Shown: piece after piece, positions 4,452 through 21,371 of the stretch | Layout of the letters: every line of letters begins with the position of its first letter | Numbering within the stretch: position 1 is the stretch's first letter | Assembly: GCA_023301765.1 (NCBI GenBank) | Contig: JALZUC010000022.1 | Location: forward strand, 1-64,000 | Length of the DNA stretch: 64,000 nucleotides | Reading direction: 5' to 3' | From: Akkermansiaceae bacterium | GTDB taxonomy: Bacteria; Verrucomicrobiota; Verrucomicrobiia; Verrucomicrobiales; Akkermansiaceae | Program-made: the position numbers and the translations under genes | The notes under the pieces: model-generated | Databases searched by the model: none | Told to the model about the DNA's origin: nothing | Seen by the model: only the letters and a program-made list of their open reading frames with translations

Positions 4452-5645
4452 ATGAAGAAACGCTCATACATAGATCTTTTTGCCGGCTGCGGCGGACTTT
4501 CCCTAGGGTTGTATAACTCAGGTCATTGGCATGGACTCTTTGCTGTAGAGAAGAGTCCTGACGCTTTCGCTACGCTTGAGCATAACCTTATTAAAAGGAA
4601 AAAGCATTTTAGCTGGCCTGATTGGTTAGGGAAACCGAAAAACCACGATATCAACGCTCTCATCGAAACATACGAAGATGAACTGAAGGCCTTGAAAGGT
4701 TCGGTTGATCTTGTTGCTGGGGGTCCCCCTTGTCAGGGTTTTTCGATGGCAGGCCGTCGAGTTGAAAGTGACCAACGTAATAATTTGGTTCACTCTTACT
4801 TAAAGTTCATCAAGTTAGTAGAGCCCAAGATGATTCTTTTTGAAAACGTCAAAGGTTTTAAAGTGGGTTTTAAGAAGAAGGATAATTCAAGAGGTCGCCC
4901 TTATTCGGATGTCGTCATCGAAGAGCTAAAGAAGCAAGGCTATGCTGATGCTCATGCTGAGATCATTGATTTTTCAGAATTTGGCGTCCCTCAGCGACGC
5001 AAGCGTTGCATCATAGTTGCAACAAAAAATAATACAGCTAAGCAGTTTTTTACTAAACTTCACAAAGAGTCATCTGTTTTCTTAAAAAGAAAAGGACTAA
5101 CAAAAGAGGTGCAATTAAGTTCAGCAATTTCAGATATTCGAGCTAAACATGGAACTACTCAATCTCCTGATTCTAGAAACTTTGAGGCCGGAAAATATGC
5201 CCCCAGGTCATACACTGCCTACCAAAAACTGATGAGAGATGAAAGAAAGGGCCTCCCGGATAGTCATCGCTTTGCGAATCATAGTGAAAAAATTAAGAAT
5301 AAATTTAGAGCGATAATCGATGAGAAGCTCAGCTCTCAAGAGGTGAGGGAGCGATTTAATACGAAAAAAAGTAGCACCAAATTACTGCGCTCGAACCTCC
5401 CGACACCAACTTTAACAACCCTTCCTGATGATTACGTTCATTATGAAGAAGAGAGGATTTTAACAGTTCGGGAGTATGCTCGAATCCAATCATTCCCTGA
5501 TTCGTATGAATTTAAAGGGAAATATACAACAGGAGGTCCTAGAAGAAAAATAGAGGTTCCTCGATATACGCAAGTTGGGAATGCTATTCCTCCTTTGTTT
5601 GCAGAACAAACAGGTCGCGTGCTTAAAAAAATAATCAATGGCTAA
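4452..5645 (+). CDS. DNA (cytosine-5-) methyltransferase, Dcm/type II family
   Basis: Transfers a methyl group from S-adenosylmethionine to C5 of cytosine in a specific DNA site. In order: motif I DLFAGCGGLSLG (residues 8-19), motif IV GPPCQGFS with catalytic Cys94, motif VI ENVKGF (131-136), motif VIII near QRRKRC, a variable target-recognition region at about 200-310, and motifs IX-X ending in QVGNAIPP. At 397 aa it has normal length and no visible lesion. It overlaps the next gene by 8 bp, so the two are probably translationally coupled. Base composition is AT-richer than the flanking genes. It probably protects host DNA from the HNH nuclease encoded at 8977-9747. The recognition site cannot be read from the sequence. 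Confidence 0.95.
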   Translation: MKKRSYIDLFAGCGGLSLGLYNSGHWHGLFAVEKSPDAFATLEHNLIKRKKHFSWPDWLGKPKNHDINALIETYEDELKALKGSVDLVAGGPPCQGFSMAGRRVESDQRNNLVHSYLKFIKLVEPKMILFENVKGFKVGFKKKDNSRGRPYSDVVIEELKKQGYADAHAEIIDFSEFGVPQRRKRCIIVATKNNTAKQFFTKLHKESSVFLKRKGLTKEVQLSSAISDIRAKHGTTQSPDSRNFEAGKYAPRSYTAYQKLMRDERKGLPDSHRFANHSEKIKNKFRAIIDEKLSSQEVRERFNTKKSSTKLLRSNLPTPTLTTLPDDYVHYEEERILTVREYARIQSFPDSYEFKGKYTTGGPRRKIEVPRYTQVGNAIPPLFAEQTGRVLKKIING

Positions 5646-7974
5646 AGAAAAAATTCAATTTCGAGTGAGCTCCTCGCTCAAAAGTATTGTTGGGAAAGAT
5701 CTTATTACCAATGATTTTGTAGCAGTCTTTGAATTAGTCAAAAATTCTATTGATGCAGGGGCGTCTAAAATTGAAGTTCTGTTTGATCTAGAAGCGGATA
5801 ACCCTTCAATCTGGATTACAGACAATGGGAAAGGGATGTCTGAAGATGACATTCGCAAAAAATGGTTGTTTTTAGGTTACTCAGCTAAAAGAGAAGGTGT
5901 TGAAGACGAGTATAAAAAAACTTATGCCGGTAATAAAGGAGTTGGACGATTTTCATGTGACCGACTTGGAAAAAAACTAACTATCCAATCAAAAACAAAG
6001 CATTGTAATAACGTTAACACTCTGACCGTTGACTGGCTAGACTATGAATTAAACTCTGAAAAAGAGTTCTCTGACGTCGATGTTTTTTATGAAGAAGTTG
6101 AAGGTTGGGCTATCGACCCACAATTAAAGTCCCCAATGACGGGGCTAGCCATTCAGATTACCGAATTACGTGAAGTCGAAAGTTGGACAAGATTTAAACT
6201 AGAAAAGCTAAAAAGAGGGTTAGCTAAGCTGATCAATCCATTCGGCGGGCAAGAGCAGGAAATTGAAATATTGATTCATTGTAAGCGAGAGATAGCTGAG
6301 GATGATCATAGAGAGCACTCAGATGAGCATCAATATCCTATTATAGTAAATGGCCCTGTTGAGAACCATATCCTAGACGTTTTAGAACAAAAAAGCGCAA
6401 GTATCATAGTCAGTATCGAAGAAGGTGCTTTAACTACAGAACTTAGGGATAGAGGTGAATTGATCTATAAAATATCAGAGCCGATTCCTGAAGACCTACA
6501 GCTACTAGAAGATTCAAAATTTAGGACTGTTGTTTATTATCTAAATAGATCTGCTAAAGCTACGTTTACTCGTCGAATGGGGATTAGTTCTAAAGCTTTC
6601 GGTTCATTATTTTTGTTCAAAAATGGATTTCAGGTTTTTCCTGTAGGTGAGGAGGGTAATGATTATTGGGGATTTGACCATCGAAGAGCTCAAGGGCATA
6701 GCCGGTTTCTTGGAAATCGAGATATGATGGGGCGCGTTGATGTGTCTGGGGGCGATGATAAGTTCCGTGAGTCATCAAGTCGGGACAAGGGGCTTATTGA
6801 TACTATTGCTTCCAGTGCCTTATCGAGAGTTGTTTTTAATATCATCAAGCGTTTTGAAAGGTATGTAGTAGGTGTCACCTGGCAAGATAAACTAGATAAA
6901 GATATTGAGGATACAGAGCGGTTATATCTCGATCATAACAGAGCACGTATTATTGATTTAATCTCGGCTTTATCTGATTCTAAAAATGTCAAAATTCTAG
7001 ACTATAACAAAGATCTTGTTTCAGTTTTAGGGCGAAAAAGTGAACGCTATGAGGAAACATTGGCTCCTCTTAGGGCGCTAGTTGCAAAAATAGACGATCC
7101 AACATTAAGTAGGAAAATTGATGCCGCTGAAATAGTTGTCAAAAAGGCTAGGGAACAACAAATAGAGTCTGAGAAGTATGCTGAAAGAGAGGCTAAAGCT
7201 CGTGAACAAGCCGAAATTATGGCTAGGCAGGCTCAAGAAGCTGAAGCTACTGCTACTGAAGCCTACGAAGAAGAGAAGAAAAGAAATCTGTTTCTGACTA
7301 GAGGTGAATTCTTAGATAAGGATTTATTAGAAAGTTTTCTTCATCAGATTGATCTGTATGCAAGTGATCAGAAAATGGCTATTGAAAACCATTATAAAAG
7401 TTTGTTGAGATCTAAATCGGAAACGGTTTCTAAAGCAAAAACTTTAGATCTAGTGTCATCCTTGCGACAGGGAATTGACAAGATATCAACGGCTTCTCGT
7501 TACGCTACGTTGGCAAATTTCAGATTAGAGTCTGGAAAGGTTACATCTGATGTTCCAGATTTCATTGAGGAATATTTAGCGAAAATAGCGCCTTTGTATA
7601 ATGGAGAGATACAAATTCAGGCGATCAGAGAAACAGGTGATCTGGAAATGACCTTTTCACCCATTGAGTTTTCGATGGTATTAGATAATTTCATTAGTAA
7701 TTCCAGAAAAGCAAAAGCTACAAAAATTGTTTTCTCTGTAGGCGTTAAAAGTAAGATATTAGTCCTCACTATATCTGATGACGGAAAAGGAATTGATAAG
7801 AAAATAGTAAATCCAGAGAAAAATATTTTTGAGAAAGGATTTACTCGAACAAAGGGTTCAGGATTAGGCCTGCATTTCTGTAAAGAAATGATAGAGCGGA
7901 TGGGTGGTTCGCTTGAACTTTCCCAAAATCAACAGCAAAGAGGATTTGAATTAATAGTTAAAATAGCAGGATGA
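5638..7974 (+). CDS. Dual GHKL ATPase: MORC/MutL-like N-terminus with histidine-kinase-like C-terminus
   Basis: A 778-aa protein with two GHKL nucleotide-binding modules. The N-terminal one has FELVKNSIDAGA (Glu32, Asn36), TDNGKGM (61-67) and GNKGVGR (98-104), as in MORC, MutL and Hsp90-like ATPases. A predicted S5-like and unassigned region follows to about 430, then a charged coiled coil at about 495-555 rich in Glu, Ala and Arg. The C-terminal module looks like a sensor kinase: a possible H-box around His569 (FLHQIDL), an N-box near Asp683-Asn684, DDGKGID (714-720) and GSGLGL (740-746). There is no transmembrane segment, so it is cytoplasmic. It overlaps the methyltransferase by 8 bp and the receiver gene by 4 bp (ATGA). 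Inference: it senses DNA damage or invasion and signals to the receiver, or drives restriction by ATP hydrolysis. Confidence 0.85.
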   Translation: MAKEKIQFRVSSSLKSIVGKDLITNDFVAVFELVKNSIDAGASKIEVLFDLEADNPSIWITDNGKGMSEDDIRKKWLFLGYSAKREGVEDEYKKTYAGNKGVGRFSCDRLGKKLTIQSKTKHCNNVNTLTVDWLDYELNSEKEFSDVDVFYEEVEGWAIDPQLKSPMTGLAIQITELREVESWTRFKLEKLKRGLAKLINPFGGQEQEIEILIHCKREIAEDDHREHSDEHQYPIIVNGPVENHILDVLEQKSASIIVSIEEGALTTELRDRGELIYKISEPIPEDLQLLEDSKFRTVVYYLNRSAKATFTRRMGISSKAFGSLFLFKNGFQVFPVGEEGNDYWGFDHRRAQGHSRFLGNRDMMGRVDVSGGDDKFRESSSRDKGLIDTIASSALSRVVFNIIKRFERYVVGVTWQDKLDKDIEDTERLYLDHNRARIIDLISALSDSKNVKILDYNKDLVSVLGRKSERYEETLAPLRALVAKIDDPTLSRKIDAAEIVVKKAREQQIESEKYAEREAKAREQAEIMARQAQEAEATATEAYEEEKKRNLFLTRGEFLDKDLLESFLHQIDLYASDQKMAIENHYKSLLRSKSETVSKAKTLDLVSSLRQGIDKISTASRYATLANFRLESGKVTSDVPDFIEEYLAKIAPLYNGEIQIQAIRETGDLEMTFSPIEFSMVLDNFISNSRKAKATKIVFSVGVKSKILVLTISDDGKGIDKKIVNPEKNIFEKGFTRTKGSGLGLHFCKEMIERMGGSLELSQNQQQRGFELIVKIAG

Positions 7975-8891
7975 AAATAGAATATAAGATTTTATGGTTT
8001 GAAGACCAATTCGAGGATATTACAGCAACAGTTGAAGCTGTAGAGAACCTCTTGGATGACTTTGGTTTTAAAGCTGATATTGAAAAGGTTGAAGTTGTTA
8101 CACCTGGTGTCGTATCTGAGCTTTCGGAGAAGCTTTCTGGATACAATCCTTACGATTTAATTTTATTTGACTATCAGTTAGGTAAAGATGGGAGAGCAGA
8201 CGGTATGGATGTAGCTATATCATTAAGGCAGCATCTATACTCTGATATGATTTTTTACAGCGCAAGCCCTAGAAGCGAGCTAAGAAAACTTCTGTATGAT
8301 CAAAATGTTGAAGGGGTGTTTACTGCGGGGCGATATACTTTTTCAGAGGATGTAGACCCAATTATCGAAGATCAAATTAAACGTATCTCAGACGTTAATA
8401 TGATGCGTGGGATTGTAATGGATGAGGTTAGTCGATTTGATCGGCTGTTGAGAGAACTTTGTTTGAAATATTTAGAAAAAGATGAAAAATACAGAGATTT
8501 AGGTGAAATTAAACTGAGACGACGATTTGAAAAACAAGCAAAAAAACTACTTAAAAAGTCAACGACAATCGATTGTCCTATTGAACAGTATTCTAATGTT
8601 CAGAAAACTAATTTTGACTTAGTGAGGAGAGGTCTTTCTGATTTTCTGAAATTGGACGGTGAAAAGGAACTTAGTTCTGCACTTAGCGAGGAAGGCATGT
8701 TAAATGAACTACAAAATCTTCGTAATCGTTTAGCTCACATTGAGGGCAATCTTGATACTGCTGGAGTAATGACTCTTGTAGACAACGAGAGTGAGAGTTT
8801 TGATTTTGGGCGTTTTATTCAGATAAGAAAGAACTTAAGGGAAGCTAGTGCCCTTATAAATGAAAAATTAAATATGGTAGGTGTGGTATAG
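7971..8891 (+). CDS. Response-regulator receiver protein with HEPN-like C-terminal domain
   Basis: A 306-aa protein. Residues 1-130 fit a divergent receiver: acidic pair Glu11-Asp12 after KILWF, phosphoacceptor candidate Asp67 (LILFDYQLG), Ser97 (IFYSAS), and Arg121 where receivers usually have Lys. No DNA-binding output domain is seen. The rest is all-helical and contains LRNRLAH (Arg251-x4-His256), which matches the RNxxxH motif of HEPN ribonucleases and HEPN-like helical domains. It starts inside the stop of the dual GHKL gene (ATGA), so the pair is probably a kinase and its partner. The nuclease role is inference from one motif. Confidence 0.75.
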   Translation: MKIEYKILWFEDQFEDITATVEAVENLLDDFGFKADIEKVEVVTPGVVSELSEKLSGYNPYDLILFDYQLGKDGRADGMDVAISLRQHLYSDMIFYSASPRSELRKLLYDQNVEGVFTAGRYTFSEDVDPIIEDQIKRISDVNMMRGIVMDEVSRFDRLLRELCLKYLEKDEKYRDLGEIKLRRRFEKQAKKLLKKSTTIDCPIEQYSNVQKTNFDLVRRGLSDFLKLDGEKELSSALSEEGMLNELQNLRNRLAHIEGNLDTAGVMTLVDNESESFDFGRFIQIRKNLREASALINEKLNMVGVV

Positions 8892-8976
8892 AGCTGTGTA
8901 GGTGAATAAAGAGAATACGTTTCGCCCGACCTCTTTAGTCACGGTAAGTCGACTTCTGTGAAGATTTGCTGTATTG

Positions 8977-9747
8977 CTAATGCCCGTGAATGTTTGCATG
9001 AGCCGCTAAAAACTCTACGCTGGGCTTAAACCCAGAAGGCGTAATGATTTTACGCCCTTCAAATTGTTTAAGCCATGAATAAGCATCGCTAGTGTCTTTC
9101 TTTTCAGATTCAAGAAAGAGTTCGGAAAAATGAATGTGGTAGTCTGGATCGATCCACATTAAGCCGTCTTCGAATAATTTATCGTGGAGTCTATTCAGAC
9201 AGAGTCCATTGAGTGGGTTGAGCCTATTCTGAGGGTCTTTGGACCAAGGGATGATGTGCCCTGCGATTAGAAGTCCTGGTGTATTTAAACCGGTTATACA
9301 ACATTTATAATTATAGGCAGACAGGATTCGATTTCGAAAAATATTTTGATTCACACGTGTCTTTACTACACGTGTTCTGTCTGTGCCATCTACAGGAAGC
9401 TGGTCTGTTTCAATCGCGTTAATTTTTTCTACAGTTGAGTTCAACCATTTTGCTTTTACCTGTTCACTTTCATATGCAAGGTCTTCGGGATTACGAATGA
9501 AATCTTCCCAAACCTCTTGTTCTCCTTTGGCTCCATTTTTCAGTCCAGATATGCCACGTTTTTGAAGTGCAGGATCTAATCGGCCAAAATTACCAAGTTT
9601 CATACCTACTGAGCTTGGCGTTCTCCCAATTAAATTAGCGAGTCCGATAATTTTTTGGTTCCCTTTGTGCATTTTCCCAAAAGGAATTTGCCAGTAAAGG
9701 TTGAGGGCAAGAATGTGTTCTTCACGAGACCATAAGGATTTAGCCAT
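8977..9747 (-). CDS. HNH endonuclease, probable restriction enzyme
   Basis: A 256-aa nuclease of the HNH_2 type. The core runs from about residue 148 to 200: a Cys pair in KCCITGL, AGHIIPW with His164, Asn180 in LNPLNGLCLN, and His188 in LHDKLFEDG. The N-terminal 100 residues form a helical, probably DNA-recognising, domain with IPFGKMHKGN and LIGRTPSSVGMKLGNF. It is convergent with the receiver gene (85 bp apart) rather than co-directional. Together with the methyltransferase it completes a restriction-modification pair. The alternative is a solitary defence nuclease; adjacency and shared AT-rich composition favour the former. Confidence 0.88.
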   Translation of the reverse strand: MAKSLWSREEHILALNLYWQIPFGKMHKGNQKIIGLANLIGRTPSSVGMKLGNFGRLDPALQKRGISGLKNGAKGEQEVWEDFIRNPEDLAYESEQVKAKWLNSTVEKINAIETDQLPVDGTDRTRVVKTRVNQNIFRNRILSAYNYKCCITGLNTPGLLIAGHIIPWSKDPQNRLNPLNGLCLNRLHDKLFEDGLMWIDPDYHIHFSELFLESEKKDTSDAYSWLKQFEGRKIITPSGFKPSVEFLAAHANIHGH

Positions 9748-10457: not shown

Positions 10458-11261
10458 CTACCATCTACCGATGATGGCGGAGAGGCTTAGTTCTGAGGTT
10501 TCTCGGGGTTTGAGCAGGTGTTTGCCGACGTTAGCTTGGGGGAAATTGGCGATGAGAAAGGGGGAGTGGGTAAATTGCCCGGTGGTGGCACTGATGGTGC
10601 CAGTTCTGGTATAGCCTCCGTAGGGGTCTATGTAGCTTATTTTAAACGATTGAGCATTTTTGGGGATGCTTTTGGGAATTTCGCTGACGACGACAAAGTG
10701 GGCGCGGATAGGCCACCAGGAGTGCTGTCCTACGGCTTTACTATAGCGGTAGGCGTAGCGGCGGATGCTTATGATAGGTGGGAGGCCTTTAGTGAGAGAT
10801 TTCACCATACGCTGGTGGGTGCGCTGGAGGAGTTTGGTTTTAGTTTCGCTGGGTTTAGTGGTGAGGGTTTCGTTTTTGATTTTGGGAAGAAATGAGGAGG
10901 TGCGCATTTCATTAGCCATATCTGTGAGGTCTAGGAGGTTGATTCCTTGTTTAACATTCCAGCGGTGGACTCCCTTGATGTGTTTAGAGGGTTTGTTTCC
11001 CCAGTTTTTGATAACGGAGTTGATACGGCTACGGCTATCTGTGCCGGCTACTGCGTTATAGGACTTTTGCCATTTTGTATTTCCGTATTGAAAGGCATTT
11101 AGGAGAGATGCTGGGCCGCAGGAGTTACCGTGTGCGCGGCGTTGGTTTATAGGTGAGGCACTTTTATTGGGTGCTGTTAGTAATTCCTGCGCTATGAGTG
11201 TAGCGGGTGCTACCGATAATACGGTGATTGTGCTGAGGAGATACTTTAGTATGACGTGCAT
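10458..11261 (-). CDS. Secreted papain-like (C39-type) cysteine peptidase homologue
   Basis: A 267-aa exported protein. Residues 1-24 are a signal peptide (MHVILKYLLSTITVLS, cleavage probably near IAQ). The mature part has the C39-like triad layout: Cys48 in GNSCGPASLLNAF, His188 in RAHFVVV and Asp212 in YIDPYGG. C39-type domains cleave double-glycine leaders when fused to ABC exporters, but stand-alone secreted forms like this one are mostly uncharacterised. No partner gene is adjacent. It lies just right of the accessory island. Confidence 0.75.
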   Translation of the reverse strand: MHVILKYLLSTITVLSVAPATLIAQELLTAPNKSASPINQRRAHGNSCGPASLLNAFQYGNTKWQKSYNAVAGTDSRSRINSVIKNWGNKPSKHIKGVHRWNVKQGINLLDLTDMANEMRTSSFLPKIKNETLTTKPSETKTKLLQRTHQRMVKSLTKGLPPIISIRRYAYRYSKAVGQHSWWPIRAHFVVVSEIPKSIPKNAQSFKISYIDPYGGYTRTGTISATTGQFTHSPFLIANFPQANVGKHLLKPRETSELSLSAIIGRW

Positions 11262-11518: not shown

Positions 11519-12379
11519 ATGGAACATAAAATGCAGATGAATACCAGTGCCGAGGAGTTTAAGGTCTGTAATGGTGTCCTTAATGATGAGTGCTTAGATA
11601 AGTTATGGATGAGTGTAAAGATGGCGGCTGAAGAGGTTATCGTAAATGAGCCACAGCTTAGACATTTACTTGAGGATGTGGTAACCAGCCGTAATGGGCT
11701 GGCGGAGAGCTTAGCTGCACGCTTGTCTAGAAAGCTGGCGGGAGAAGATATGCAGCGTAATGAGCTAGAGCCATTACTGCTGGAGACATTGACAAAAAAT
11801 GGCAAACTGGTGCGCAGTGCGGCTAGGGATATGCAGGCTATTGTGGACCGTGACCCTGCGTGTAAGTCGGCTCTTGAGCCGTTATTATTTTATAAAGGCT
11901 TTTTAGCGCTGACGGCTTATCGTGTGGCACACCATATGTGGGTCAGTGATCGTAGGGTTTTGGCTTTGTATTTTCAGAGTATCAGCAGTGAGATCTTTGC
12001 CGTAGATATCCATCCTGCCGCACGGATAGGCTGTGGTATTTTATTAGATCACGCTACGTCACTGGTGATCGGTGAGACGTCTATCGTGGAGGATAATGTG
12101 TCGATCCTCCACGAGGTGACGCTAGGTGGTACAGGGAAGGAGGCAGGAAACCGTCACCCAGTGGTGCGCTCCGGCGTGTTACTAGGTGCAGGGGCTAAAA
12201 TTCTAGGCCGCGTAACTATAGGTGAGTGCGCTAAGGTGGGGGCAGGGAGTGTGGTGCTAGAGGATGTGATGGCACATACTACAGTGGCTGGTGTGCCTGC
12301 TGTGGTGATGGGCCAGAGTGGTGAGGAGAATCCAGCGTTAGGGATGAATCAGACACTCTGTGATGGCTGGCAGATATAG
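11519..12379 (+). CDS. cysE: Serine O-acetyltransferase
   Basis: Makes O-acetylserine from serine and acetyl-CoA, the first step of cysteine synthesis. The 286-aa protein has the helical N-terminal domain and a C-terminal left-handed beta-helix of hexapeptide repeats (AARIGCGILLDHATSLVIGE, VSILHEVTLGGTGKE, VGAGSVVLEDV) with the catalytic Asp-His pair in LLDHAT. The first ATG is used; Met5 and Met7 are alternatives. It is convergent with infA, with 4 bp between the stops. Confidence 0.92.
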   Translation: MEHKMQMNTSAEEFKVCNGVLNDECLDKLWMSVKMAAEEVIVNEPQLRHLLEDVVTSRNGLAESLAARLSRKLAGEDMQRNELEPLLLETLTKNGKLVRSAARDMQAIVDRDPACKSALEPLLFYKGFLALTAYRVAHHMWVSDRRVLALYFQSISSEIFAVDIHPAARIGCGILLDHATSLVIGETSIVEDNVSILHEVTLGGTGKEAGNRHPVVRSGVLLGAGAKILGRVTIGECAKVGAGSVVLEDVMAHTTVAGVPAVVMGQSGEENPALGMNQTLCDGWQI

Positions 12380-12383
12380 CCGG

Positions 12384-12602
12384 CTAGTCTTCTACAATGG
12401 CACTGATGCGGCCTTTTTCAAAGTCATAGGGCGTCATCTCAAGGGTGACTTTAACACCTGCTGCTAGTGACTCGTGCAGGTGCTCCATAGCTTTGGCTAC
12501 ATGGCCGATTATTTTTTTCCCGTTAGGGAGCGCAACGAAGTAGATGTTAGCTTTTGGAGATTCGAGGATAGTTCCTGTGGTGACAACGGGTGGATCAAAC
12601 AT
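12384..12602 (-). CDS. infA: Translation initiation factor IF-1
   Basis: A 72-aa OB-fold protein that binds the ribosomal A site during initiation. It contains GTILES, FVALPNGKKIIGHVAKAM and the family signature VTLEMTPYDFEKGRI near the end. The start at 12602 (MFDPPVV) gives the exact usual length; the frame continues upstream to 12650 but would run into the luxC homologue stop region. It lies 29 bp downstream of the luxC homologue on the same strand, an unusual neighbour for infA. Confidence 0.85.
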   Translation of the reverse strand: MFDPPVVTTGTILESPKANIYFVALPNGKKIIGHVAKAMEHLHESLAAGVKVTLEMTPYDFEKGRISAIVED

Positions 12603-12631
12603 GGTATTATGGTGTGAGGTGTGGTGAAATA

Positions 12632-13708
12632 TTAGCCAATATCCTTCCACTTAATGAGGGATGCTAGTGGGGCAATGCCATCGTGATGCCAGAAGAGATC
12701 TGGCTGCTGACTGCTGCCTAGTGGGCATATGCGGTGTGCTGGAAGGTGGCTAAAAGATTCTGCAGCTACTGTAGAAAATGGGTGTAGCGCGATGGTGGAG
12801 AGATACTGAGATTCGGGGCCTAGGCTAGCTGTAGTAATTTTAGCAGGGAGGGGCTTCACGTAGATGCAGCGATTTAGGCAGGAGAGTTTTAGGGTGGAAT
12901 CAGGCTCTAGGATAACTGTCCAGTGTAGATTTCCTTCACTCTGCCAGAGGTGGGTGAGGGGATCGTTGGCAGCTATAAACTGTGTGGTCTGCCTGAGATT
13001 CTGTATGGCTCCAGCCTCAGAGAGGGAGAGTGGCTGTGGTGGATCCTCTCGGCAGTAGTTATCCATTTCCTGTGCTAGTATTTCTCCAAAGTGAAGGGTG
13101 TCTCCCTGAACATAAATGGCATGAGGGGAGAGGCAGCCGCGCTGATTATGTAATGAACAGTCTTTGGCGGCTAGGCGGGCGGCATTATAAAAATCCTCGG
13201 TAACTATGCCTATGGAAACTTTATGACCATGAGGGATAAATCTTTGTTGAGGTAGTAGCCGGCTGTGGATATCTGCGATGGTGGTATCTGAGCCTGTGGC
13301 GATGACGACGTCTGCTGGATGCAGTATGTCATCTGTGAGCTCACTGTGACAGTTTACTAATCTGGAGAGCTCCGCCGGGAGTGTGAGTATCCATTTTTCA
13401 AAATCAGGCAGACCGAGGGATGGTAGTTTAATCGTATTATTAGAGCCGATCACTAATCCGCGGAGGAGACTTTGGAGTGCTGCGTGTGGAGTGTTCCCGC
13501 TTACAATGTGGAGAATGGAAGATGGGGCAAAAGCTTTACTGCTGAGGTTACCATGTGGGTGAAATATATCTAAGGCATCAGCATGACCTAGCTCAGCTGA
13601 TACCCAGTCTGTTAGCTCTGTCTCGCTGATTTCACCTAATAGCTCTCTGGTAATCCTGTGCCGGCAGGCTTCACCAAGGAGTTGGATTCTTTCCTGAGTA
13701 GTTGTCAT
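12632..13708 (-). CDS. Acyl-CoA reductase-like protein (LuxC family)
   Basis: LuxC-family enzymes reduce activated fatty acyl groups to aldehydes with NADPH. The start at 13708 (MTTTQER) gives about 358 aa and follows the luxE homologue by 4 bp; the longer frame to 13807 would overlap that gene by 95 bp. Features of the aldehyde-dehydrogenase-like fold are VSGNTPHAALQSLLRG, VIATGSD and the probable nucleophilic Cys in HNQRGCLSP (residue 192 from this start). No luxAB is present, so the role is probably lipid or secondary metabolism rather than light. Confidence 0.8.
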   Translation of the reverse strand: MTTTQERIQLLGEACRHRITRELLGEISETELTDWVSAELGHADALDIFHPHGNLSSKAFAPSSILHIVSGNTPHAALQSLLRGLVIGSNNTIKLPSLGLPDFEKWILTLPAELSRLVNCHSELTDDILHPADVVIATGSDTTIADIHSRLLPQQRFIPHGHKVSIGIVTEDFYNAARLAAKDCSLHNQRGCLSPHAIYVQGDTLHFGEILAQEMDNYCREDPPQPLSLSEAGAIQNLRQTTQFIAANDPLTHLWQSEGNLHWTVILEPDSTLKLSCLNRCIYVKPLPAKITTASLGPESQYLSTIALHPFSTVAAESFSHLPAHRICPLGSSQQPDLFWHHDGIAPLASLIKWKDIG

Positions 13709-13712
13709 TTTT

Positions 13713-14771
13713 TTATCCAAGGGCTTGGTCAGCAGATCTAGAACAACCGCGTGGGAGTGCTGTGGGATCACGCCCCAGCAGTGTGAAGGAATTATCTTCT
13801 CCTGCAATGGCTATATCTTGTGTTTGTATAGCAGATACAGAGTAGAGGTTCGCGAGGTCATAGATGGCTAGATGGCCAGACTCGCCAGCGGCAGCATCTG
13901 TGCCTGTGCGAGGGTCTATAACCCGTGTGCGTGTCCAGGAATGGGCTGTATGTGGCTGGTTAAGTCCTCGTGTATAAAACTGACTACTAAGCTCGGTCAT
14001 GGAGTATTCATTGATCACGCAGTCTGGCTTCAGGCCAAGTTTTTCACTAAAGAGTGCGTAGAGTTCAGCTTTCTCAAGCTGTCTCTTAGTACCTTTATAA
14101 CCACCCGTTTCCATGGCAAAGCTACCAGAGGGCAGGGGTATAGAGATTGAGTCAAAGAGATGGAGGAAAGTAATGGCCGTTCCGAGTATAGCGACTGGTG
14201 AGGTGAGCTCAGCGAGTGGCTCTATTTTATCTAGATCTAATGTGCCGTCTTCTGAGATAGCCCATATGATCTGAGCTTCTGCGTAGTGCTCTGCTAGAAC
14301 GCCCATCATGTAACTGAGAGATGAGTGGGGGGCGTGCTCAGGATGAGGGGTGAGAAAGACTAGAGTAGTGGGTTGTGCCAGTGAGAGCCTCTGCCATGAA
14401 CTTAGGATGGCCTGCTTATAAAGCTCAAGGGAGGGGAAGTGATGTTGCCCGCGTATCTCTCCCGTAGTTCCTGAGGTGTGAAATGTGCGTAGAGTAGATG
14501 CAGGGCTATGAGTAATTAGTGGATGGCTAATTACCTTAAAAGCGTCTGTGCTAACTCTTGGGATTTCATGCCAGTGATTGATATTTTCTGGGTTACGTCC
14601 ATGGGTAATGCAGTAGTTCTGGTATGGGATGTTGTGCGTAAACTGGAACTTAAATACCTCTATAGCTAGGATTTCAAAATTAGTATCTATTGCTTCGGGT
14701 GTGCGCAGCATACGTATTAAATTACGTAGTAATGGCTGTGGTATCTGGGGAGCTTCTGGTGAGGGTGACAT
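13713..14771 (-). CDS. Acyl-protein synthetase-like enzyme (LuxE family)
   Basis: LuxE-type enzymes activate fatty acids as acyl-AMP and pass the acyl group to a LuxC reductase. The 352-aa protein carries the AMP-binding P-loop FHTSGTTGEIRG (residues 97-108), ETGGYKGTKR and INEYSMTELSSQFYTRG, all typical of this family. It is the first gene of a minus-strand run with the luxC homologue (4 bp) and infA, so the pair probably forms an acyl-reductase complex. The substrate is unknown. Confidence 0.85.
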   Translation of the reverse strand: MSPSPEAPQIPQPLLRNLIRMLRTPEAIDTNFEILAIEVFKFQFTHNIPYQNYCITHGRNPENINHWHEIPRVSTDAFKVISHPLITHSPASTLRTFHTSGTTGEIRGQHHFPSLELYKQAILSSWQRLSLAQPTTLVFLTPHPEHAPHSSLSYMMGVLAEHYAEAQIIWAISEDGTLDLDKIEPLAELTSPVAILGTAITFLHLFDSISIPLPSGSFAMETGGYKGTKRQLEKAELYALFSEKLGLKPDCVINEYSMTELSSQFYTRGLNQPHTAHSWTRTRVIDPRTGTDAAAGESGHLAIYDLANLYSVSAIQTQDIAIAGEDNSFTLLGRDPTALPRGCSRSADQALG

Positions 14772-14955
14772 TGGAGAAAAGCAGTAGAGCGTGGATTATT
14801 CTGAAATTCGCTGTGACTATCAAGGCTAGATTCAGACTCAAATATTACGTTGAGAGGCTTGTCATCAATTGAATTTATGATATTGCCGCTTTGCAAATTA
14901 TATTTCGTGGTAATTTTTCAAGCCACGTCTTCTAAACAATAAATACCCAAACACA

Positions 14956-16173
14956 ATGATACAAACAATGCATCTACTCGCAGCTGACCTGTCTTTTGGT
15001 CAAAAGATGAAAGAGTTCTTTGCTACCGCTCAAGACGGTATCAACACTCTAGGCCCTCTTGGGGCATTCATCCTCGCCATTCTGGTATTCATCGTTGGCC
15101 GTATGGTCGCCGGTGTAATTCGTAACTTGGTAATCAAAGGCCTCAGTAAAACAGATATTGATAATAAACTTGCTGCCATGGTCGGTCACGAGAGTGGCGC
15201 TGAGAAAGGTATCGGTACATTCGTATACTACCTTCTACTTCTCTTTGTAGTTATTATTGCATTGGGTGTAGCTAAGCTTGATAAAGTAAGCGGTCCTCTT
15301 CAGGAAATGCTTAGCCAATTCTTGAACTTCATTCCTAATGTTCTTGGCGCAGCTTTACTTCTTTTCTGTGTTCTTATCATCGCTAAAGTGATTAAGAACC
15401 TTACAGGAGGAATTCTTGATGGTGCTAAGCTGGACGAGCGTCTAGGCTCTAAGCCTGGCCAAAAGCCAGTATCTAATGCTCTTGTTACAGCACTTTATTG
15501 CTTCATCGTTCTTCTCTTCATGCCTGCTGTTCTTGAGCTTCTCAAGATCGAGAGTGTATCTAAGCCTGTTGGTGACGTTGTTGAGCAAATCCTTGCCGCA
15601 GTGCCAAATATCATCATCGCTAGTGTTCTTGTAGCTGTAGGTATCATGATCGGTCAAATCGCTCGCAAACTTGTTTCTAACCTCCTTGAGGCAGCTGGTG
15701 CAAATGCATGGCCTGCTAAACTTGGTTTAGACGTACCACAAGAGGGCAGCCGTTCACTTAGCGAAGTTGTAGGTCTTGTAGTTATGATCAGCATTGCTGT
15801 GCTCATGATCAGCTCTGCTATTAACGAATTAAACATCGGACTTCTTTCCGGTGCTTCTGAAGGTTTTGTTGATGGATACTTCAACGTGCTCATAGCTATA
15901 ATCATCTTCGGTGCAGGTGTGCTTCTTTCTAAGTTTGCTTACACAAACCTTGAAGATAAGAACATGCTCCTTGCTAATGTTGCTCGTATTGCAATTCTTG
16001 TGCTCACTACCGTGGTAGCGCTAAATCGCTCACAGATCGCTCCTGATCTTACTGGTCTTCCATTCCAGTTTGCTATCTACGCACTTGCTACAGCATTTGG
16101 TATCGGTGGCGCTATCGCTATCGGTCTAGGCGGCAAAGATTTTGTTGCTCGCTGGCTCGAACGCAAAGGTTAA
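14956..16173 (+). CDS. Mechanosensitive-channel-type membrane protein (conserved TM helix repeats)
   Basis: A 405-aa inner-membrane protein with about eight to ten hydrophobic segments, arranged as repeated units (LGAFILAILVFIVGRMVAG, NVLGAALLLFCVLIIAKVI, NIIIASVLVAVGIMIGQIA, FGIGGAIAIGLGGKDFVARW). The FGxGGAxAxGLGGKDFVA ending matches the pore-helix repeat of MscS-related proteins, but the large cytoplasmic beta domain of MscS is missing. Gene expression appears high-bias (regular codon choice). It ends with a strong terminator at 16192. Confidence 0.8.
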   Translation: MIQTMHLLAADLSFGQKMKEFFATAQDGINTLGPLGAFILAILVFIVGRMVAGVIRNLVIKGLSKTDIDNKLAAMVGHESGAEKGIGTFVYYLLLLFVVIIALGVAKLDKVSGPLQEMLSQFLNFIPNVLGAALLLFCVLIIAKVIKNLTGGILDGAKLDERLGSKPGQKPVSNALVTALYCFIVLLFMPAVLELLKIESVSKPVGDVVEQILAAVPNIIIASVLVAVGIMIGQIARKLVSNLLEAAGANAWPAKLGLDVPQEGSRSLSEVVGLVVMISIAVLMISSAINELNIGLLSGASEGFVDGYFNVLIAIIIFGAGVLLSKFAYTNLEDKNMLLANVARIAILVLTTVVALNRSQIAPDLTGLPFQFAIYALATAFGIGGAIAIGLGGKDFVARWLERKG

Positions 16174-21276: not shown

Positions 21277-21371
21277 TGGCGGAGAGGGAAGGAATTGAAC
21301 CAACCAGAGACCATAACAGCCTCTCAACGGTTTTGAAGACCGCGGCGACCACCAGGCACGCTTCACTCTCC
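21277..21371 (-). tRNA. selC: tRNA-Sec (anticodon UCA)
   Basis: The minus strand folds as a 95-nt class II tRNA ending in an encoded GCCA, the same length as the E. coli selenocysteine tRNA. The anticodon loop CTTCAAA (anticodon TCA) closes on GCGGT/ACCGT, and a 6-bp variable arm forms (AGAGGC/GTCTCT). The acceptor GGAGAG/CTCTCC pairs well. Position 7 is mismatched (T with C), and the T-stem GTTGG/CCTTC has two T-T mismatches, so the 3' half is atypical. The 3' side is one base shorter than 8+5 pairing needs. Confidence 0.82.

Follow-up and report, generated by a model that had tools for sequence, protein, structure and literature searches.

What are two homologues of bioluminescence genes doing directly upstream of a gene for a translation initiation factor? 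The question is raised by 64,000 nucleotides of DNA from an Akkermansiaceae bacterium (assembly GCA_023301765.1, contig JALZUC010000022.1, positions 1 to 64,000), which we call the window. There, homologues of luxE and luxC are followed on the same strand by a small gene that a first-pass annotation had taken for infA. The genome of the window, G000, has an assembly size of 2.46 megabases and is 97.8% complete; other genomes, loci and families are likewise designated by G, L and f numbers, and the coordinates in the window are collected in Table 1. We propose, with a probability of about 0.68, that the three genes form a conserved, probably cotranscribed cluster, in which LuxE and LuxC would make up an acid-to-aldehyde module without luciferase and the third gene encodes a diverged paralog of the initiation factor IF-1, here named IF1', and not the canonical factor.

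A LuxE-LuxC pair without a luciferase

As the first-pass annotation had claimed, the luxE and luxC homologues lie 4 base pairs (bp) apart on one strand, and its coordinates, strands and gaps are all as given: four bases (13709-13712) separate the luxE stop codon from the luxC ATG. Both proteins score above the cut-offs of their Pfam families, LuxE with 45 bits against PF04443 (cut-off 24.9) and LuxC with 156.5 bits against PF05893 (cut-off 21). They also resemble the partners in 7xc6, the solved LuxC-LuxE complex of the fatty acid reductase of bacterial bioluminescence. The LuxE profile (A3, 14 rows) matches chain E at 6.1e-31, with the C-terminal GCS aligned to GCS, and the LuxC profile (A2, 15 rows) matches chain A at 2.4e-32, with the cysteines in register (QQACFS vs QRGCLS). 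Going by work on luminous bacteria, we take Cys343 of LuxE and Cys192 of LuxC to be the acyl carriers or nucleophile. Cys343, the TSGTT motif and RGCS are kept in LuxE homologues, the cysteine in 31 of 31. GCLS is likewise kept in LuxC, with the cysteine present in 38 of 40 homologues and in all 15 of a second set.

The lack of luciferase genes, also part of the first-pass annotation, extends to the whole genome. The luciferase family PF00296 has no match anywhere in the 97.8% complete assembly, and the same search was positive in 10 of 14 control genomes; a luciferase encoded elsewhere in the genome was rejected on this ground. The LuxE-LuxC pair here is not a luminescence system. Since the cysteines are kept and no luciferase match is found, an ATP-driven acid-to-aldehyde step is likely, judging by sequence. 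In such a step, LuxE would adenylate a carboxylic acid, most likely a fatty acid, with ATP. The acyl group would then move onto Cys343 of LuxE and from there to Cys192 of LuxC, which would reduce the thioester with NADPH to yield the aldehyde, and IF1' would be made from the same message as the two enzymes.

As for the substrate, an AMP-binding, acyl-CoA ligase-like gene of 634-637 codons follows the IF-1 gene in G131, G272, G219 and G245 (f33 and f23), not in G168 (f23), and relatives of it stand behind IF-1 at loci L244, L261, L262 and L279. Two of these ligase-like proteins were tested and reach 263.8 and 250.2 bits against PF00501. This neighbour favours a fatty acyl substrate. The fatty aldehyde route suggested at first is thus borne out as far as a pair for acyl activation and thioester reduction without luciferase is concerned (Pfam, 7xc6 and PF00296 searches), whereas we infer the fatty nature of the substrate.

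The third gene encodes a divergent IF-1

The first-pass annotation had further placed infA 29 bp downstream of luxC and read it as an essential initiation factor. The position and strand stand, but the name, if it is to mean the initiation factor of the cell, does not. IF1' scores above the cut-off of the eIF-1a/IF-1 family PF01176 (32.6 bits, cut-off 30.2) and below that of the infA equivalog TIGR00008 (43.3 bits, cut-off 61.15), and a better canonical IF-1 is encoded on another contig (G000:C9:11643-11831; 77.8 vs 31.4 bits for the copy in the window). Missing from IF1' is also the basic block GKMRKRFIR, presumably a contact with the 30S subunit. Among 31 canonical rows from relatives, this block is present in 28 and reads GKMRKRFIK in two, the remaining row, from G029, being mis-extracted. 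The canonical copies have 4.9 lysines or arginines per nine residues vs 1.5 in 37 divergent copies, and mean core net charges are +3.9 and about -0.4, respectively; these means include the G029 row, which was dropped from the later canonical profile, and some of the paralog rows are truncated (G023, G035, G011, G056). With a canonical IF-1 elsewhere, a low TIGR00008 score and the basic block lost, the window gene was rejected as canonical infA, and the locus does not show an essential factor tied to the pathway in this organism.

IF1' is under purifying selection. The ratio of nonsynonymous to synonymous substitution rates (dN/dS) between the window gene and its nearest relative, L218, is about 0.20 (dN 0.155, dS 0.770); of five pairs tested, four gave a low ratio and one, L264-L266, gave about 0.6. 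L, NGK, H, D and RI are invariant in the paralog rows of two alignments. An AlphaFold2 model of IF1' (mean predicted local distance difference test score 84) aligns with E. coli IF-1 (9fco_I) over 68 residues, with a Z of 11.9 and a root-mean-square deviation of 1.7, and rows 1-13 of a Foldseek search with the model are all IF-1. IF1' is a maintained protein with a predicted IF-1 fold. It is most likely not the main initiation factor, and most likely a specialised RNA- or ribosome-associated protein of the oligonucleotide/oligosaccharide-binding (OB) type that is made together with the enzymes.

In a first small tree, the canonical IF-1 sequences formed one clade (support 0.83) and the paralogs were not recovered as one. 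A tree of 131 IF-1 sequences (72 columns) has a group of 61 that includes the paralog-type copies (support 89), and in its other half, among sequences of the canonical type, a luxC-linked group of 19 (support 76) lies apart from an unlinked group of 11 (support 99). Its labels were assigned by locus, L231 and L286 being labelled as linked though the luxC scan found no IF-1 there. The deeper order of this tree leaves unsettled the orthology of linked IF-1 between orders, and whether both types had one linked ancestor. A still more diverged IF-1-like gene, with a tail of CKI and then Trp, was seen behind luxC at L236, L241 and L242. In G041, the genome of L241, the Pfam search gave no IF1', and the scan of the L241 locus shows one.

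The gene order recurs across Verrucomicrobiia

Whether the arrangement is particular to this bacterium was addressed by comparing gene orders. A LuxC match of at least 74 bits is present in 26 of 58 near relatives. In 18 of these 26, an IF-1-family match stands directly downstream on the same strand, with 65-249 bp between the profile matches (adjacency read by eye from match coordinates). In G011, both luxC and the IF-1 gene are at contig ends, and a weaker LuxC type without IF-1 adjacency is found in G021, G033, G029, G017 and G016. By a rough estimate, an IF-1 gene would lie on the correct strand and at most 300 bp 3' of luxC with a chance of about 1e-4 per genome, so that 18 of 26 is far above expectation.

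Across the class, LuxC (E up to 1e-12) was found in 132 of 286 genomes. Of these 132, 74 were checked for IF-1, mostly with the shorter LuxC type and again by eye, and 11 have IF-1 directly downstream (G131, G159, G168, G219, G232, G236, G245, G272, G281, G290 and G303). The adjacency thereby extends to at least six families, f1, f23, f33, f42 and f58 plus f2 (G056). A scan of named genomes covered the best 80 of 299 confirmed luxC relatives and consequently leans to near relatives. A luxE gene ends at most 300 bp upstream on the same strand in 53 of the 80 loci, an IF-1-family gene lies at most 400 bp downstream on the same strand in 45, and both are present in 33; contig ends left four loci unjudged downstream and one upstream. 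The scan used its own open reading frame and profile criteria, and distant luxE genes may be missed since the LuxE profile stems mostly from the family of the window.

Chance or an oddity of one genome is rejected by this recurrence across the class, and the arrangement loses the status of an unusual one-off that the first-pass annotation had given it. The luxE-luxC-IF-1 order is a recurrent trait of Verrucomicrobiia, and it has probably been kept for a reason. Among the papers listed by our searches of the open-licence literature of PubMed Central (PMC), we found none on a luxEC-IF-1 linkage.

The 45 linked IF-1 genes, whose start codons were picked by script, are of two types. Thirty-one fit the paralog profile better, none of them with GKMR, and 14 fit the canonical profile better, all with GKMR. 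By title, eight of the canonical-type loci are Chthoniobacter, Chthoniobacterales, Spartobacteria or Terrimicrobiaceae; of the other six, one is Verrucomicrobiaceae and five are Verrucomicrobia without closer placement. Among the loci of the paralog type are Akkermansiaceae, Rubritalea, Roseibacillus and Persicirhabdus. In G159 (99% complete; L157:7069-9631), the sole IF-1 match is the canonical copy behind luxE-luxC. A sole canonical IF-1 behind the pair is therefore not what G000 has, given its second, canonical copy, but it does fit the gene content of G159.

The spacing is tight throughout. Between luxC and IF-1, gaps in the 45 linked loci are 4-121 bp, with medians of 23 and 16 for the two IF-1 types, and the 29 bp of the window agree with the cotranscribed appearance noted initially. 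No promoter-like site was found in the gap at 12603-12631, in a scan no richer in sites than shuffled sequence (3 sites in 12300-15000 vs 3.4 in shuffles). Given the short spacing, cotranscription of luxE, luxC and IF1' is likely.

At four luxC loci without IF-1, the neighbours of luxEC share no theme: they match argininosuccinate lyase in G115, GT87 and, weakly, an esterase in G174, GT2/polysaccharide epimerase in G144, and Nuo51/thioredoxin-like ferredoxin/dihydroorotate dehydrogenase in G149. With the neighbours unrelated, a common further partner of luxEC at these loci was rejected. A 170-residue neighbour in G115 and a 628-residue protein encoded in G236, where luxC has an adjacent IF-1, gave no Pfam match. 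Two loci deserve a separate mention. L064 (G034:C48:31596-32561), a LuxE homologue, contains an in-frame TAA and shares its contig with neither luxC nor IF1' of G034, which might reflect decay of the pathway. L275 (NYXU01000078.1) is titled Porticoccaceae, which we take to be a gammaproteobacterial family, and has a Verrucomicrobial-type luxE-luxC pair beside tyrA and aroA; it is probably a mis-binned contig.

A second association, with selB

In other genera, a 640-residue neighbour of IF1' is SelB (TIGR00475 300-330 bits in the four tested, cut-off 242). Twenty-seven near relatives have both genes, and in nine of them IF1' lies directly 5' of selB on the same strand; in the four cases measured, the two genes are 3-5 bp apart or overlap by 8 bp. 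G020 and G022 have luxE, luxC, IF1' and selB in a row on a single strand (in G022 with about 0.6 kilobases (kb) between luxE and luxC), and G014 has luxC, IF1' and selB in a row. The order luxC-IF1'-selB is also seen in a cultured relative, Rubritalea marina DSM 17716 (L227), where a search immediately 5' of luxC gave no luxE. In G000, selB is on the contig of the window at 82648-84534, about 70 kb from IF1', and the gene for the selenocysteine tRNA (tRNA-Sec) is about 9 kb from IF1'. Of the 58 genomes, 27 have IF1' and selB, 10 IF1' only, six selB only and 15 neither (Fisher p 0.002, uncorrected for kinship). In the family of the window (36 genomes), all 23 genomes with selB over the cut-off have IF1', nine have IF1' without selB and four have neither. 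IF1' was counted here as the second, weaker match to PF01176, or as the sole match in G018, so that very diverged copies are missed. The co-occurrence is suggestive of a shared task.

Points against the proposed cluster and alternative explanations

Several observations weigh against the cluster as we propose it. The two enzymes fall far below the equivalogs for luminescence (LuxE 38.8 of 550 bits for NF052244, LuxC 67.9 of 750 bits for NF052251), which means that the substrate may differ. LuxC is shorter than its counterpart, positions 26-355 of the profile aligning to residues 107-445 of 477 in 7xc6_A, and has about 80 N-terminal residues fewer. The ligase-like neighbours are below their NCBIfam equivalog cut-offs. 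As for the gene order, no adjacent IF-1 was detected at 35 of the 80 luxC loci, four of them at contig ends, and luxC and IF1' are on separate contigs in G034. Finally, IF1' occurs in genomes without LuxC of at least 74 bits and without selB over the cut-off, for instance G018, G019 and G025; it is thus not strictly tied to the aldehyde module.

The frequent breaks in the order, the lack of a common theme in the genes beside the four luxC loci without IF-1, and the presence of IF1' beside c4lip-tyrA-aroA without luxEC in G255, G277, G318, G282 and G246 would all agree with a relic of common descent, in which the neighbours are maybe cotranscribed for convenience, aldehyde formation and IF1' being functionally untied. 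We consider this a real possibility, if short of an even chance, because the tight same-strand spacing is found in at least six families (f1, f2, f23, f33, f42 and f58) while the surrounding genes differ. Another view concerns the chemistry. Instead of forming a free fatty aldehyde, LuxE and LuxC might act on a surface glycan or on some other acyl group that is not a lipid, a role proposed for homologues in flagellin glycosylation islands. In passages of two reports, on Aeromonas (PMC7874193) and on Enterobacteriaceae (PMC4875605), luxE/luxC homologues are listed with the fatty-acid-type genes of such islands, and glycan-type genes adjoin luxEC in G144 and G174. In the window, however, the pair has cysE and a mechanosensitive channel gene as neighbours of the block and no adjoining glycosyltransferase, and in other lineages the gene that follows is acyl-CoA ligase-like; modification of a glycan is therefore unlikely.

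The remaining explanations turn on IF1' itself. It could be an accessory factor of selenocysteine decoding with SelB that stands behind luxEC only by descent, in keeping with its place 5' of selB in a third of the near relatives with both genes, its presence in every selB genome of the family and the nearby tRNA-Sec. The 10 of 58 genomes with IF1' and no selB over the cut-off, the six with selB and no detected IF1', and the distance of selB in G000 argue the other way and make this very unlikely. The original idea, an essential initiation factor cotranscribed with aldehyde genes in this organism, has the spacing in its favour and would fit the gene content of G159; with a better canonical copy on another contig, and with IF1' below the equivalog cut-off and devoid of the basic block, it is extremely improbable here. 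We thus favour a luxE-luxC-IF1' cluster with a non-luminescent aldehyde module and a diverged paralog. It is tempting to go further and to see in the copies without the basic block a second IF-1 class of Verrucomicrobiia, operonic with LuxE-LuxC or selB and acting as a specialised ribosome factor, for example in UGA recoding or in coupling translation to acyl-aldehyde formation, a proposal that we regard as quite unlikely in its full extent.

Relation to known systems

With the LuxE-LuxC system of bioluminescence (7xc6), the pair shares both enzymes, the adjacency of their genes, the two aligned cysteines and the TSGTT loop. It differs from that system in the missing luciferase match, the shorter LuxC and the scores far below the luminescence equivalogs. 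The order is luxE-luxC here, whereas it is luxC...luxE in the lux operon. Like the pairs of the flagellin islands, as far as the passages cited above describe them, it is a LuxE-LuxC pair apart from luminescence; unlike them, it does not directly adjoin any gene for glycosylation, an acyl carrier protein or flagella.

IF1' resembles canonical IF-1 in length, in its predicted OB fold and in the TPYD..KGRI motif, and differs from it in the lost basic block, the core charge and its status as a second copy. Other bacteria, such as beta-proteobacteria with infA1/infA2, also have second infA copies. Two IF-1 genes per genome are common to both cases, but one of the copies described here has diverged strongly and is linked to luxEC and, in relatives, to selB.

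The locus thus exemplifies a conserved, non-luminescent use of LuxE and LuxC, and we found no described product for such a pair in this class. A diverged subfamily of IF-1, repeatedly associated with luxEC and selB in these genomes, comes to light as well. Were IF1' to act on the ribosome, it would count as a translation factor of a new, specialised kind. G159, with its sole IF-1 behind luxEC, makes the link directly testable.

Neighbouring genes and other features of the window

The block is flanked by a convergent cysE gene and a divergent channel gene (Table 1). The IF1' locus was fetched from 13 genomes of the same genus, and in 11 of them IF1' adjoins a cysE homologue.

Table 1. Positions of the luxE-luxC-IF1' block, its surroundings and further features of the window, and IF1'-selB pairs of near relatives
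Feature	Position	Strand	Remarks
luxE-like gene	13713-14771	-	352 aa (amino acids), adenylate-forming acyl-protein synthetase homologue; TSGTT (99-103), C-terminal RGCS with Cys343
luxC-like gene	12632-13708	-	homologue of acyl-thioester reductases, 358 aa from ATG at 13708; Cys192 in QRGCLS as putative nucleophile
luxC-IF1' spacer	12603-12631	-	29 bp, without promoter-like match
IF1' (divergent IF-1 paralog)	12384-12602	-	72 aa; OB fold predicted, basic block of canonical IF-1 missing
Candidate sigma-70-like promoter 5' of luxE	14795-14823	-	TTGATA-17-AATAAT; weak, number of sites not above shuffles
cysE (serine acetyltransferase)	11519-12379	+	converges on IF1'
Mechanosensitive channel gene	14956-16173	+	divergent, upstream of luxE
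tRNA-Sec	21277-21371	-	context only; shares its contig with the luxE-luxC-IF1' block in G000 and G001
IF1'-selB neighbours in near relatives	e.g. L097:4075-6219		G014, G020, G021, G022, G024, G028, G032, G033, G034
C5-cytosine methyltransferase	4452-5645		part of possible defence island
Protein with two HSP90/histidine-kinase-like ATPase domains	5638-7974		part of possible defence island
Unassigned 306-aa protein	7971-8891		part of possible defence island
HNH nuclease	8977-9747	-	part of possible defence island

Further along the window, the genes at 4452-9747 look like a restriction-modification or other defence island. A 267-residue protein encoded at 10458-11261 on the minus strand has no Pfam or NCBIfam match at E 0.001, and relatives of it are present in nine of the fetched neighbourhoods.

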